This document shows, in pieces, positions 6,503 to 38,003 of a stretch of 38,079 bases of DNA. The notes below the pieces were generated by a model. It searched no databases. It saw only the letters and a list, made by a program, of their open reading frames with translations, and had not been told where the DNA came from. Source of the DNA: an uncultured Pseudomonadota bacterium (lineage in GTDB: Bacteria > Myxococcota_A > Bradymonadia > Bradymonadales > Bradymonadaceae); the NCBI GenBank assembly GCA_950059285.1, contig CATLTV010000029.1, positions 1-38,079 on the forward strand, read 5' to 3'. Each line of letters starts with the position of its first letter. Position 1 is the first letter of the stretch. The position numbers were made by a program, and so were the translations under genes.

Positions 6503-6574
6503 GACAAAAAAGAGGCGCGAGGGGGGCGAGGATTTACGCAGTAAATCCTCGCCCCCCTCGCGCCTCTTTTTGTC
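6503..6574. terminator. Bidirectional terminator palindrome 2 (31-bp perfect arms)
   Basis: Arms 6507-6537 and 6541-6571 are perfectly complementary around the loop GCA; beyond one bulged A the stem continues for 3 bp. It lies between convergent acyl-CoA dehydrogenase and HEAT-repeat genes. Its central part (GCGAGGATTTAC-GCA-GTAAAT) closely matches palindrome 6 at 18080. Confidence 0.9.
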
Positions 6575-9154: not shown

Positions 9155-9212
9155 GCAAAAATAAAGGGAGGGGGCAGCTGATTTATCAGCTGCCCCCTCC
9201 CTTTATTTTTGC
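9155..9212. terminator. Bidirectional terminator palindrome 3 (28-bp perfect arms)
   Basis: Arms 9155-9182 and 9185-9212 flank TT and are perfectly complementary, with A-rich ends. It separates the convergent TPR/PEGA and yacG genes. The core differs from the GGGGCGA group (GGGGGCAGCTGAT). Confidence 0.9.
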
Positions 9213-10462: not shown

Positions 10463-10538
10463 TCAAAAAATTGAGCGGCCAGGGGAGGGCAAATTTCGCA
10501 AGCGAAATTTGCCCTCCCCTGGCCGCTCAATTTTTTGA
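10463..10538. terminator. Terminator palindrome 4 (37-bp perfect arms)
   Basis: Arms 10463-10499 and 10502-10538 flank AA. A6 and T6 runs are at the ends and a GGGGAGGG-rich stem is in the middle. Unlike most of the set it stands between two genes in the same direction, YceI-like and di-haem cytochrome. Confidence 0.9.
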
Positions 10539-12743: not shown

Positions 12744-12756
12744 GCAACGTGACAAA

Positions 12757-12820
12757 AGACAAGAGCCAAAAGAGGGGCGATGTTCGCTAGCGAACATCGC
12801 CCCTCTTTTGGCTCTTGTCT
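12757..12820. terminator. Bidirectional terminator palindrome 5 (32-bp perfect arms, no spacer)
   Basis: Positions 12757-12788 and 12789-12820 form a perfect 64-bp palindrome centred on GCT|AGC, with core GGGGCGATGTTCGCT. It lies between the convergent acidic lipoprotein and polyferredoxin genes. Confidence 0.9.
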
Positions 12821-12831
12821 GTTGAGATAGT

Positions 12832-18079: not shown

Positions 18080-18150
18080 AGCGCAAGAAACGACAAAAGG
18101 GGCGAAGATTTACGCAGTAAATCTTCGCCCCTTTTGTCGTTTCTTGCGCT
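18080..18150. terminator. Bidirectional terminator palindrome 6 (34-bp perfect arms)
   Basis: Arms 18080-18113 and 18117-18150 flank GCA, with core GGGGCGAAGATTTAC. It is between the convergent zinc ribbon protein and NDH-2-like genes. The stop codon is three bases to the left. Confidence 0.9.
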
Positions 18151-19617: not shown

Positions 19618-19720
19618 ATAATGACATGGTGTAAGCACACAAACACAAAGACGTGGCCAAACAGGGTGCAAGTGACTCAAAAAAGGGGGAGATATGGTTT
19701 TTCTTGCGTGAGATCGATGC

Positions 19721-19734
19721 CACTATATGTAGTG
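19721..19734. promoter_or_regulatory. NrdR-box-like palindrome
   Basis: CACTATATGTAGTG strongly resembles the NrdR box (ACACTATATATAGTGT type). It lies 31 bases upstream of the extended -10 at 19762-19770 that points towards nrdJ. NrdR represses ribonucleotide reductase genes in most bacteria. Pairs of boxes are usual; I could not find a convincing second one. Confidence 0.6.
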
Positions 19735-19761
19735 TGTTCTACTTTTGTGGGCTACTTTATC

Positions 19762-19770
19762 TGGTATAAT
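19762..19770 (+). promoter_or_regulatory. Extended -10 promoter upstream of nrdJ
   Basis: TGGTATAAT is a perfect extended -10 (TG-N-TATAAT). The -35 region is poor, as is usual for this class. Transcription would start near 19777, leaving a leader of about 520 bases. A nearer promoter is possible at 20234-20260. Confidence 0.55.
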
Positions 19771-19779
19771 AAGCTTGAC

Positions 19780-20290
19780 ATCCTGTGTGTGCTGGGCGAG
19801 TCTTTGGTTCGCTTCGGCCACACGAAGGGCAGCAGGTTACAGGATATGTAAATCGTTGTTGATGCAGTATAAATCAACAACTGTTGCCATGTGTGGGCCA
19901 GATTGAATCGTAAAGTCACGATGATTTATGTCGGGTCACCACCAAAGGGTGATCAGCAGGAAAGTACAGGCTCACAGGAGTTAGACGACATGAATAGCAC
20001 GGAACATCAAGGTGGGGGAGCGGGGCGGATCTTGAGTTCCAACTGGCAAGAAGAGATCAGGTTACATTGGGGGATGTGGTTTGGATCAGGCACCTAGAAC
20101 GTAGGGGTGGGACAGCAGGACAGGATACACAAATGAGCAAGGGCGAATGAGATCGCTGTTGGTCATGCTGTGAGTCTTGTTTTGAATTGAATGGAGCTTC
20201 ACTGGACTTATGTTTAGTGTGAGTGTCAGGTACTTGGAAAACTAGCACGTATTTTATACTTCACAACAACCCGAACATCATTGGAAGACG
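19780..20290 (+). promoter_or_regulatory. Long structured 5' leader of nrdJ (candidate cis-regulatory RNA)
   Basis: The 5' part can fold into a closed domain. ATCCTGT (19780-19786) pairs with ACAGGAT (19839-19845), TGCTG (19790-19794) with CAGCA (19830-19834), and inside lie GCGA/TCGC and CTTCG-N6-CGAAG. Then come GTTGTTGAT-N9-ATCAACAAC (19855-19881), a 7-bp hairpin at 19934-19954 and a 10-bp stem with a bulge at 20001-20040, whose loop is very G-rich. The motif CAGCAGG...ACAGG recurs at 19830, 19954 and 20113, so three downstream segments could compete for one upstream strand. No known riboswitch consensus is present, including that of cobalamin. A published candidate RNA motif found before nrdJ genes in metagenomes may be related, but I cannot compare the two here. 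Confidence 0.5.
20234..20260 (+). promoter_or_regulatory. Alternative proximal promoter of nrdJ
   Basis: TATACT (20255-20260) lies 15 bases after TTGGAA (20234-20239). The spacer is short and the -35 weak. If used, it would give a 30-base leader and bypass the structured region. Confidence 0.3.
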
Positions 20291-20296
20291 AGCATT

Positions 20297-23218
20297 ATGG
20301 CCACAGATATTCCCAGCACATCTGTTAATACACAGGCAGCAAAACCGACCAAGAAGGTCAGAACATTTAAACCCACCAAGGACGGGCTCAAGTTTCCCCG
20401 TGTGTATACCAAGCCAGGCGTACACCCATTTGACGAGGTGACATGGGAGCTACGTGATGCGTCAATTACCAATGAGCGCGGCGAGGCAGTGTTTGAGCAG
20501 AACGGAGTGGAGTTCCCCGAGTTCTGGTCACAGATGTCTACCAACGTGGTGGTCTCGAAATATTTCCGTGGCAAGATCGGCTCCCCTGAGCGTGAGCACA
20601 GCGTCAAGCAGTTGATTGGCCGCGTGGTGGATACAATCACAGAGTGGGGCAAGAAGGATGGTGTCTTTGCGGATGATGACGCAGCCGAGACCTTCAGAGC
20701 AGAGCTTGCATATTTGATTTTGCATCAGAAGATGGCCTTCAACAGCCCCGTGTGGTTCAACGTGGGTGTGGAGGAGCGTCCACAGGCGTCAGCATGTTTC
20801 ATCAACTCGGTGCAAGACACCATGGGTGACATCATGGATCTGGCAAAGACCGAATGCATGTTGTTCAAATGGGGAAGTGGCGCGGGCTCCAACCTGTCCA
20901 CCTTGAGGAGCTCCAAGGAGTATCTCTCGGGTGGTGGTCAGGCCAGCGGTCCTGTCAGCTTTATGCGTGGTTATGATGCGTTTGCAGGCGCGATCAAATC
21001 AGGCGGCAAGACACGTCGTGCAGCGAAGATGGTGATTCTTGATGCAGAGCACCCTGATATCCTTGAGTTCGTGGAGAGCAAGTCCAACGAGGAGCGCAAG
21101 GCATGGGCTTTGATCGAGCAGGGTTATGATGGTGGCTTCAACGTGCCTGGTGGTGCGTATGATTCTGTAGCCTTCCAGAACGCCAACCACTCCGTACGAG
21201 CATCTGATGAATTTATGCAAGCAGTGGTGGACGATGCGGACTGGACCACAAAGGCTGTGGTTGATGGCGCTCCTATTGAGACCTTGAAGGCACGTGATGT
21301 GATGAACTCCATTGCCGAGGCGGCATGGGTGTGTGGTGATCCTGGTATGCAGTATGACACCACCATCAACGACTGGCACACATGCAAGTCGACCGATCGT
21401 ATTTACGCAAGTAACCCATGTTCCGAATACATCTTCCTGAATGACACGGCATGTAACCTTGCGAGCTTGAACTTGATGAAGTACCGCAAGGACGATGGTT
21501 CCTTTGACGTGGAGAAGTTTAGCCACGCAGCAAGGCTCACCATCACGGCGCAGGAAATTATTGTTCCTAACGCAAGTTACCCCACACCTGCGATTGGAAA
21601 GAACTCACATGATTTCCGTCCACTAGGTCTTGGATTTACAAACCTTGGTGCGCTGCTCATGGTGCGAGGCATTCCTTATGACTCCGCACAGGGTCGTGCC
21701 ATCGCAGGTGCGATCACCTCATTGATGTGTGGTGAGGCGTATGCGCAGTCCGCAAAGATCGCCAAGACCTCAGGTCCATTCCCTGGATACCCCGAGAATG
21801 AAGAGCCAATGCTTGGTGTGATCAAGATGCACCGCGATAGCGTGCAAGGCATCGCATCAGAGTACAACGACATTCAGAACGATCCTATTTTCAAGGCGGC
21901 TCAGAAGTCCTGGGACAATGCATACGCACTGGGCAAGGAGCATGGATACCGCAACGCACAGGTCACAGTGCTCGCACCTACAGGTACAATCAGCTTCCTT
22001 ATGGACTGTGACACCACAGGTATCGAGCCTGATATCGCGTTGATCAAGTACAAGAAACTTGTGGGTGGTGGTTACTTCAAGATTATCAACCGCTCTGTGC
22101 CAGAGGCTCTAACCGTACTTGGTTATAATGAGCAGGAGCGCAAGGACATCGAGCAGTACCTGATGGATCAGGACACCATTGAGGGTGCGCCTCATCTGAA
22201 AGAAGAGCACCTCTCCGTCTTTGATTGTGCGTTTGTTGCTGCCAACGGCACGCGTTCCATCGAGCCGATGGGTCACGTCAGGATGATGGCCGCATGTCAG
22301 CCATTCCTCTCTGGTGCAATTAGCAAGACAGTGAATATGCCAAACACCGCAACTGCCGAGGAAATCGCAGATGTGTATGTGGATGCATGGAAGCTTGGTT
22401 TGAAAGCGATCGCCATCTACCGCGATGGTTGTAAGCGTACGCAGCCTCTGTCCACCTCCATGGACAAGGGTGAGGAGAAGCAGGAAGCTGTGGCATCCAC
22501 AGAGACCGTTGAGAGTGAACTTCCCATGGCAGCAGTGGCTGAGAAGGTCATGTCCGAGCAGCCCGTGCTCAAGCGTCGTCAGCGTCTTCCCGATGAGCGT
22601 CCCTCGATTACACACAAGTTCTCCATCGCAGGTCACGAGGGTTACATCACCGTGGGCATGTACAACAATGGACAGCCTGGCGAGATCTTCATCGTGATGA
22701 GCAAGGAAGGAAGCGTGGTCAGTGGTTTGATGGATTCCTTCGCGACCTCCATCTCTCTCTGCTTGCAGTATGGTGTGCCTCTGGAAGTGCTCGTGGACAA
22801 GTTTAGCTTCACACGCTTTGAGCCATCTGGCTTCACCAACAACCCACGTATTCGTATGGCACACTCCATTACGGATTATCTCTTCCGCTGGCTTGCGGAC
22901 AAGTTCATGGGCGACTCTCAAAAGAGCCGTTACTTTTCAAACCTTGAGTTTGGAAGCGACTCCGAAGAAGAAACTGTGAGCCCTGCTCAGGCTGTCGCTG
23001 CTGTCAAAGGCCAGGAGCCAGAAACTGCTGCCGAGGCGACTGCTTCTGCATTCGAGGAAGCTCCTGCTGGAAGTGTGGTGTATGAGGCATCCAAGAACTC
23101 TGCGCCCATCGCCATGCAGTCAGATTCACCCCCCTGTCATGTATGTGGTGGTATCACGGTTCGCGCTGGAGCTTGTTACTCCTGTCCAAACTGTGGCGCT
23201 ACAACAGGTTGCGGTTAA
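20297..23218 (+). CDS. nrdJ: Adenosylcobalamin-dependent (class II) ribonucleotide reductase
   Basis: The 973-residue enzyme makes deoxyribonucleotides with a thiyl radical generated from adenosylcobalamin, so it needs no oxygen or iron partner. MAFNSPVWFNVG and the KWGSGAGSNLS segment are hallmarks of NrdJ. The active site NPCSE gives N373, C375 (radical Cys) and E377. Redox Cys are likely C167 (ACFINSV) and C386 (TACNLASLNL). There is no N-terminal ATP-cone. After the barrel come a basic linker (about 715-755), a TSCPD-like domain (HKFSIAGHEGYITVGMYNNG to about 880), an acidic linker and a C-terminal Cys-rich tail (CHVCGG, CYSCPNCG, GCG). That tail is likely a zinc-binding or thiol-regenerating element. 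GGAAG 9 bases before the ATG supports the start. It is monocistronic, closed by palindrome 7, with an NrdR-like box upstream. Confidence 0.95.
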   Translation: MATDIPSTSVNTQAAKPTKKVRTFKPTKDGLKFPRVYTKPGVHPFDEVTWELRDASITNERGEAVFEQNGVEFPEFWSQMSTNVVVSKYFRGKIGSPEREHSVKQLIGRVVDTITEWGKKDGVFADDDAAETFRAELAYLILHQKMAFNSPVWFNVGVEERPQASACFINSVQDTMGDIMDLAKTECMLFKWGSGAGSNLSTLRSSKEYLSGGGQASGPVSFMRGYDAFAGAIKSGGKTRRAAKMVILDAEHPDILEFVESKSNEERKAWALIEQGYDGGFNVPGGAYDSVAFQNANHSVRASDEFMQAVVDDADWTTKAVVDGAPIETLKARDVMNSIAEAAWVCGDPGMQYDTTINDWHTCKSTDRIYASNPCSEYIFLNDTACNLASLNLMKYRKDDGSFDVEKFSHAARLTITAQEIIVPNASYPTPAIGKNSHDFRPLGLGFTNLGALLMVRGIPYDSAQGRAIAGAITSLMCGEAYAQSAKIAKTSGPFPGYPENEEPMLGVIKMHRDSVQGIASEYNDIQNDPIFKAAQKSWDNAYALGKEHGYRNAQVTVLAPTGTISFLMDCDTTGIEPDIALIKYKKLVGGGYFKIINRSVPEALTVLGYNEQERKDIEQYLMDQDTIEGAPHLKEEHLSVFDCAFVAANGTRSIEPMGHVRMMAACQPFLSGAISKTVNMPNTATAEEIADVYVDAWKLGLKAIAIYRDGCKRTQPLSTSMDKGEEKQEAVASTETVESELPMAAVAEKVMSEQPVLKRRQRLPDERPSITHKFSIAGHEGYITVGMYNNGQPGEIFIVMSKEGSVVSGLMDSFATSISLCLQYGVPLEVLVDKFSFTRFEPSGFTNNPRIRMAHSITDYLFRWLADKFMGDSQKSRYFSNLEFGSDSEEETVSPAQAVAAVKGQEPETAAEATASAFEEAPAGSVVYEASKNSAPIAMQSDSPPCHVCGGITVRAGACYSCPNCGATTGCG

Positions 23219-23277: not shown

Positions 23278-23343
23278 TGATAAAGGCCAGAGGGAGAGGG
23301 GCTGCTCATATATGAGCAGCCCCTCTCCCTCTGGCCTTTATCA
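23278..23343. terminator. Terminator palindrome 7 (33-bp perfect arms, no spacer)
   Basis: A perfect 66-bp palindrome is centred on CATA|TATG, with GGGAGAGGGG stem. It lies between nrdJ and the co-directional beta-helix lipoprotein gene. Starts GATAAAG, like palindrome 9. Confidence 0.9.
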
Positions 23344-26967: not shown

Positions 26968-27009
26968 AGAAAGGCCGTGCTCCCCTGCAAAGGGGAGCAC
27001 GGCCTTTCT
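26968..27009. terminator. Bidirectional terminator palindrome 8 (19-bp perfect arms, GCAA loop)
   Basis: Arms 26968-26986 and 26991-27009 close the stable tetraloop GCAA on the plus strand. T-rich DNA (TTCTTTGTTTTT) follows. It separates the convergent proB and small membrane protein genes. Confidence 0.9.
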
Positions 27010-36002: not shown

Positions 36003-36068
36003 TGATAAAGACAAAAAGAGAGGGCGAAGTTTGCTAGCAAACTTCGCCCTCTCTTTTTGTCTTTATCA
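36003..36068. terminator. Bidirectional terminator palindrome 9 (33-bp perfect arms, no spacer)
   Basis: A perfect 66-bp palindrome centred on GCT|AGC, with core GGGCGAAGTTTGCT. It lies between the convergent lipoprotein and SpoIID-domain genes; the minus-strand stop codon is 6 bases to its right. Confidence 0.9.
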
Positions 36069-37920: not shown

Positions 37921-38003
37921 GACCAAAAGAGAGGACGACAAAGAAGGGGGCGAGTGTTGCGCAGCAACACTCGCCCCCTTCTTTGTCGTCCTCTCTTTTG
38001 GTC
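37921..38003. terminator. Palindrome 10 (40-bp perfect arms)
   Basis: Arms 37921-37960 and 37964-38003 flank GCA, the same loop as palindromes 2 and 6, with core GGGGGCGAGTGTTGC. It is upstream of the SpoIID-domain gene and probably ends a gene beyond the right edge. It is the longest in the window. The last 76 bases hold nothing I recognise. Confidence 0.85.

Follow-up and report, generated by a model that had tools for sequence, protein, structure and literature searches.

Predicted NrdR operators and a long, predicted structured 5' leader upstream of the class II ribonucleotide reductase gene nrdJ in a Bradymonadaceae bacterium

Published sites of the regulator NrdR overlap the RNA polymerase site and are made up of paired palindromic boxes, with about three helix turns from one box to the other; they include the class II nrdRJ promoter of Streptomyces coelicolor (PMC9110341, PMC12051234). 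The spacer between the boxes is commonly 15-16 bp and binding occurs with dATP plus ATP (PMC9110341, PMC12051234). In S. coelicolor, NrdR acts on both class II nrdRJ and class Ia nrdAB (PMC9110341, PMC12051234). Vitamin B12 enters the regulation of reductases in Streptomyces at another gene, namely through a cobalamin riboswitch on the B12-free class I enzyme (PMC4991794), RF00174 at class Ia nrdABS (Borovok 2006, as cited in PMC4991794). Moreover, an RNA motif named nrdJ, RF03034, is described upstream of nrdJ genes in Streptomyces (Weinberg 2017, as cited in PMC8388888) and, for S. lividans, is listed as preceding nrdJ (PMC8079986).

In this study, we analysed a window of 38,079 nucleotides (the whole stretch of DNA) which carries a nrdJ gene behind an intergenic gap of 840 bp, reaching from the start of a divergent oxidoreductase gene (19456, minus strand) to the start of nrdJ at 20297. 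The gene product exceeds the curated cut-offs of both NF005122 (1448 bits, cut-off 859) and TIGR02504 (587 bits, cut-off 400). An earlier note on this DNA had described a B12-dependent reductase preceded by a gap of roughly 500 bases with several stems; the enzyme is indeed class II by both models, and gap and stems are present where the note had placed them. Absent from the note was a pair of predicted NrdR operators just upstream of the leader. The elements at the upstream end of the leader and the gene itself are as follows.

19720-19735: NrdR box 1, CCACTATATGTAGTGT, a palindrome with 0 mismatches to the consensus; core 14-mer at 19721-19734, conserved C19723 and G19732
19752-19767: NrdR box 2, degenerate, CTACTTTATCTGGTAT, placed by its spacing from box 1; core at 19753-19766, C19755 and G19764
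19762-19770, plus strand: extended -10 element TGGTATAAT, read from the sequence, with a weak -35; overlaps NrdR box 2
19775-19780, plus strand: TTGACA
20297-23218, plus strand: nrdJ, class II (adenosylcobalamin-dependent) ribonucleotide reductase, 973 aa, matching NF005122 and TIGR02504

The palindrome pair is the only element common to the nrdJ upstream regions of 16 other genomes. It stands before nrdJ with an offset of 31-33 bp in all 16 relatives scored, and box 1 is found in these relatives as the same element at the same place. In the window the core of box 1 is CACTATATGTAGTG and that of the degenerate box 2 is TACTTTATCTGGTA; the offset between them is exactly 32 bp, which leaves a spacer of 16 bp between the two 16-mers and puts the second box about three helix turns off, as in NrdR sites. 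Both boxes carry the C and G, 9 nt apart, that are conserved in NrdR boxes (PMC9110341). A degenerate pattern of the pair matches the 6.6-Mb genome once, at this site, and its reversed-pattern controls gave 0 matches. The genome encodes NrdR (G000:C52:6949-7389; TIGR00244, 187.9 bits, cut-off 124.65). Because sequence, invariant C and G positions and spacing fit the published boxes, we regard the pair as predicted NrdR sites. The conserved regulator of nrdJ is, on this prediction, a pair of NrdR DNA operators with a DNA-level logic. As in S. coelicolor, two palindromic boxes lie at the promoter of a class II nrdJ in a genome that encodes NrdR; in contrast to S. coelicolor, nrdR is not adjacent to nrdJ, the second box is degenerate and a leader of 520 nt follows.

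In nearly all relatives TTGACA follows the box pair, most often at the same distance. The TTGACA of the window lies 8 nt after the core of box 2, in the place of the relatives' -35, without a good -10 downstream, and a simple promoter scan at 19775-19780 gave no two-hexamer promoter. Thus the -35/-10 pair of the relatives is not intact in the window, and the predicted transcription start near 19777 is based on the extended -10 element and its weak -35. This start is close to the beginning of the leader as the earlier note had placed it. A leader starting there would contain the following features.

19777-20296, plus strand: predicted structured 5' leader of nrdJ, 520 nt; folding z -3.5 to -4.9, without a family match in Rfam or a homologue among 379 genomes of the phylum
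19779-19850, plus strand: closed multi-stem domain with outer stem ATCCTGT/ACAGGAT, inner stem TGCTG/CAGCA and two small hairpins
19855-19881, plus strand: 9-bp perfect hairpin GTTGTTGAT/ATCAACAAC, z -3.2
19934-19954, plus strand: 7-bp hairpin GGTCACC/GGTGATC, z -2.7
19990-20097, plus strand: candidate upstream ORF of 35 codons, MNSTEHQGGGAGRILSSNWQEEIRLHWGMWFGSGT, with AGGAG 8 nt before the ATG, inside the leader
20001-20040, plus strand: stem with G-rich loop, z -0.9, within chance
20055-20087, plus strand: 14-pair hairpin GATCAGGTTACATT...GATGTGGTTT.GATC, within a stretch of z -5.3
20116-20184, plus strand: long imperfect hairpin of about 27 pairs with U-rich 3' arm (GTCTTGTTTTG), z -5.3 and -4.9 to -5.6

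The leader folds better than expected by chance, in agreement with the earlier note which had called it structured. The 527 nt from 19770 to 20296 fold at -178.3 kcal/mol, their shuffles at -149.9 +/- 5.8 (z -4.9, 0 of 100); when repeated on 520 nt, the test returned z -3.5. Among the four stems named in the earlier note, the hairpins at 19855-19881 and 19934-19954 exceed shuffles, while the multi-stem domain and the stem with the G-rich loop do not. The multi-stem domain alone (19775-19850) reaches z -0.8, and pairing with 19850-19890 offers a more stable alternative to it (19770-19890, z -2.9). The strongest fold had been missed: it is formed by 20055-20087 together with 20116-20184, in a stretch (20050-20190) of z -5.3. 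Folding of 20055-20184 is strand-specific, with z -5.6 and -4.9 on the plus strand as compared to -2.2 and -1.2 on the minus strand.

This strand-specificity bears on the question of where the transcript begins. nrdJ might instead be driven by a proximal promoter, the gap being untranscribed or the remains of a lost gene.

20234-20260, plus strand: candidate proximal promoter TTGGAA-15 nt-TATACT, proposed from its letters only, with a start near 20267

Its hexamers agree with the consensus in 4/6 and 5/6 positions, its 15-nt spacer falls outside the range of 16-18 used in our promoter scan, and the unusual length of the leader would find a simple explanation. We nevertheless judge it unlikely that this promoter drives nrdJ, as in nearly all relatives the promoter adjoins the NrdR boxes, strand-specific folding points to a transcribed RNA, and the ORFs within the gap have no match to a Pfam family. 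Promoter conservation and strand-specific folding favour the distal start, and the leader is probably transcribed from the distal promoter. A direct repeat, TTGGAAAACTAGCA / TTGGAAGACGAGCA, is found at 20234-20247 and 20281-20294, the former lying at the promoter-like proximal site and the latter over the ribosome-binding region of nrdJ.

The hairpins at 20055-20184 also raise the question of termination within the leader. They could be an intrinsic terminator or attenuator, perhaps a decayed form of the palindromes which stand at gene ends in this genome (see below), with read-through setting part of the nrdJ output and the 35-codon upstream ORF coupling it to translation. The z of -5.3, the U-rich 3' arm, an inner 5' arm (AAGGGCGA) that like this arm resembles the gene-end palindromes, a palindrome score of 17.5 (20116-20184) which is high for a site away from a gene end, and the AGGAG-8-ATG start of the upstream ORF at 19990 all speak for it. 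However, although the hairpin at 20116-20184 is terminator-like, no U tract follows the stem, and a terminator scan of the 20055-20184 hairpins found no canonical terminator; moreover, the arms are imperfect, unlike those of the gene-end elements, and the leader has no homologue in the genomes searched. Altogether we consider termination here rather improbable. The 35-codon ORF has no match in Pfam. The leader, and most concretely this terminator-like hairpin, may have an RNA-level role, but the comparisons with relatives lend it no support.

Concerning known RNA families, scans of the leader and its surroundings against Rfam, both at gathering score and up to E 10, returned nothing relevant, and neither did a scan of 18 related loci at gathering score. 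This upholds the statement of the earlier note that the leader matches no known riboswitch. The position before nrdJ is like that of RF03034 in Streptomyces, but this motif of 80 positions has no match in 19770-20296 up to E 10. The cobalamin riboswitch RF00174 was found neither in the leader nor in the window. When the leader was searched as DNA against 379 genomes of the phylum, in which the genus is represented by this genome alone, nothing came up beyond two marginal matches, 23-29 nt long, and pairwise local alignment with the nrdJ leaders of 16 relatives gave z of at most 2.4. The idea of the earlier note that the leader may sense B12, a nucleotide or another signal is not supported as far as a conserved element is concerned, given that RF03034 and RF00174 have no match and that no homologue appears in the 379 genomes or in the 16 relatives' leaders. 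By these searches the leader is private to this lineage. A copy search found it once in the genome, and its interpretation as a repeated or mobile element was rejected on account of the single copy.

The leaders of relatives differ in length from the 520 nt found here, with about 94-180 nt and 339 nt in one case. Their first 85 nt after the -10 have a mean z of -2.2 over ten genera versus approximately 0 in two non-coding controls, and are better folded than control stretches (genus-level Wilcoxon p 0.001-0.025). The start of nrdJ leaders in the family thus tends to be structured, though the sequence is not kept. A common outer stem closing from the transcript start was dropped (Fisher p 0.03; one coding control reached 0.04). 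RNAalifold gave no covariation support in either of two groups of leaders (g3 and g13). The leaders of G001 and G012 (pair g2, loci L017 and L013) form the sole genus pair with covariation support: the consensus fold reaches -31.6 as compared to -9.2 +/- 2.9 for column shuffles; 7 of its pair changes are two-sided, and 0 pairs are broken. These two leaders are a better place to seek an nrdJ leader RNA.

It is against these comparisons that a new riboswitch or protein-binding RNA in the leader, confined to the genus and responding to a nucleotide, B12 or another signal, has to be weighed. Strong and strand-specific folding, the length of the leader relative to those of relatives, leader starts structured across the family, and the G001/G012 consensus fold, which far exceeds column shuffles and has two-sided changes and no broken pair, are compatible with such an element. 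What makes us consider it unlikely is that the leader matches no Rfam family and has no homologue in the phylum genomes or in relatives' leaders, that the two other leader groups lack covariation support, that the common closing stem did not rise above controls, and that B12 is already sensed at another locus, before nrdAB.

L114:2283-6120 (G000 contig C55), minus strand: cobalamin riboswitch and nrdA-nrdB, on another contig than nrdJ

This riboswitch (RF00174, 106.8 bits, E 1.1e-26) is the single match in the genome and lies directly upstream of class I nrdA-nrdB. The NrdA of this operon has an ATP-cone and a barrel domain, and NrdB is encoded alongside. Among 12 genomes of the same family scanned, only this one has a second full-length reductase large chain; two large-chain matches in G009 are contig fragments. 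As in the Streptomyces nrdABS case (cited in PMC4991794), the riboswitch precedes class I nrdAB in a genome that also has class II nrdJ; it lies on another contig, outside the nrdJ leader. By analogy with Streptomyces, B12 sensing in this genome is located before nrdAB. The riboswitch at this position takes away the chief argument for a B12 sensor upstream of nrdJ. The arrangement, with the riboswitch at the B12-free enzyme and predicted NrdR boxes at the B12-dependent one, is the same wiring as in Streptomyces (PMC4991794), as far as the predicted boxes hold.

We therefore consider it likely that an NrdR-controlled distal promoter drives nrdJ, that the leader is transcribed as a structured 5' UTR peculiar to this lineage and that B12 is read at nrdAB instead. 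We infer that, with dATP plentiful, NrdR with dATP and ATP would occupy the boxes at 19720-19767 and, as these overlap or abut the promoter, would block RNA polymerase. When dNTPs fall, NrdR would release the site, and transcription would start near 19777 to give a 5' UTR of 520 nt which is strongly but privately folded. The cobalamin riboswitch before nrdAB would turn down the B12-free enzyme when B12 lets NrdJ work. The folds of the leader most likely influence how stable the mRNA is or how it is translated, and transcription may pause or in part terminate at the hairpin of 20116-20184, whose 3' arm is U-rich. Points against this explanation are the degenerate box 2, the -35/-10 pair which is not intact, the candidate proximal promoter and the z of -0.8 of the 5' domain.

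If NrdR control holds, the Streptomyces-style wiring of a class I and class II pair, with NrdR acting at nrdJ and a B12 riboswitch preceding nrdAB, occurs in another lineage as well. This corrects the natural assumption that the long leader of a B12-dependent enzyme must sense B12. If the leader proved regulatory, a second, RNA-level layer would act on an essential enzyme. It is improbable, in our estimate, that the leader is a genus-restricted attenuator or a riboswitch class not described before, layered on NrdR control of the class II reductase; if it were, initiation at nrdJ would respond to the dNTP level and elongation to a second signal.

A side observation concerns the ends of genes in this genome. 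Long near-perfect palindromes lie mostly within 80 nt after stop codons. They have arms of 18-41 bp and a central gap that is mostly 0-2 nt, and are A/G-rich in their outer and GC-rich in their inner parts.

Palindromes in the window: 2259-2295, 6507-6571, 9155-9212, 10463-10538, 12753-12824, 18080-18150, 23278-23343, 26968-27009, 36003-36068, 37921-38003
Further palindromes: loci L123-L132

Over 238 kb of this genome we counted 41, as compared to 0 over 255 kb of six relatives of the same family. Their hairpins give false Rfam matches below threshold, to RF03034 and to microRNA families. The only RF03034 match of note in this genome (30.9 of 40.3 bits; contig C262, L115:1501-1577), which is also the best in the family, was discarded as spurious: it is a perfect gene-end palindrome which also scores as microRNA families. 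The palindromes look like giant loopless bidirectional terminators, and they seem more unusual than the nrdJ leader itself.
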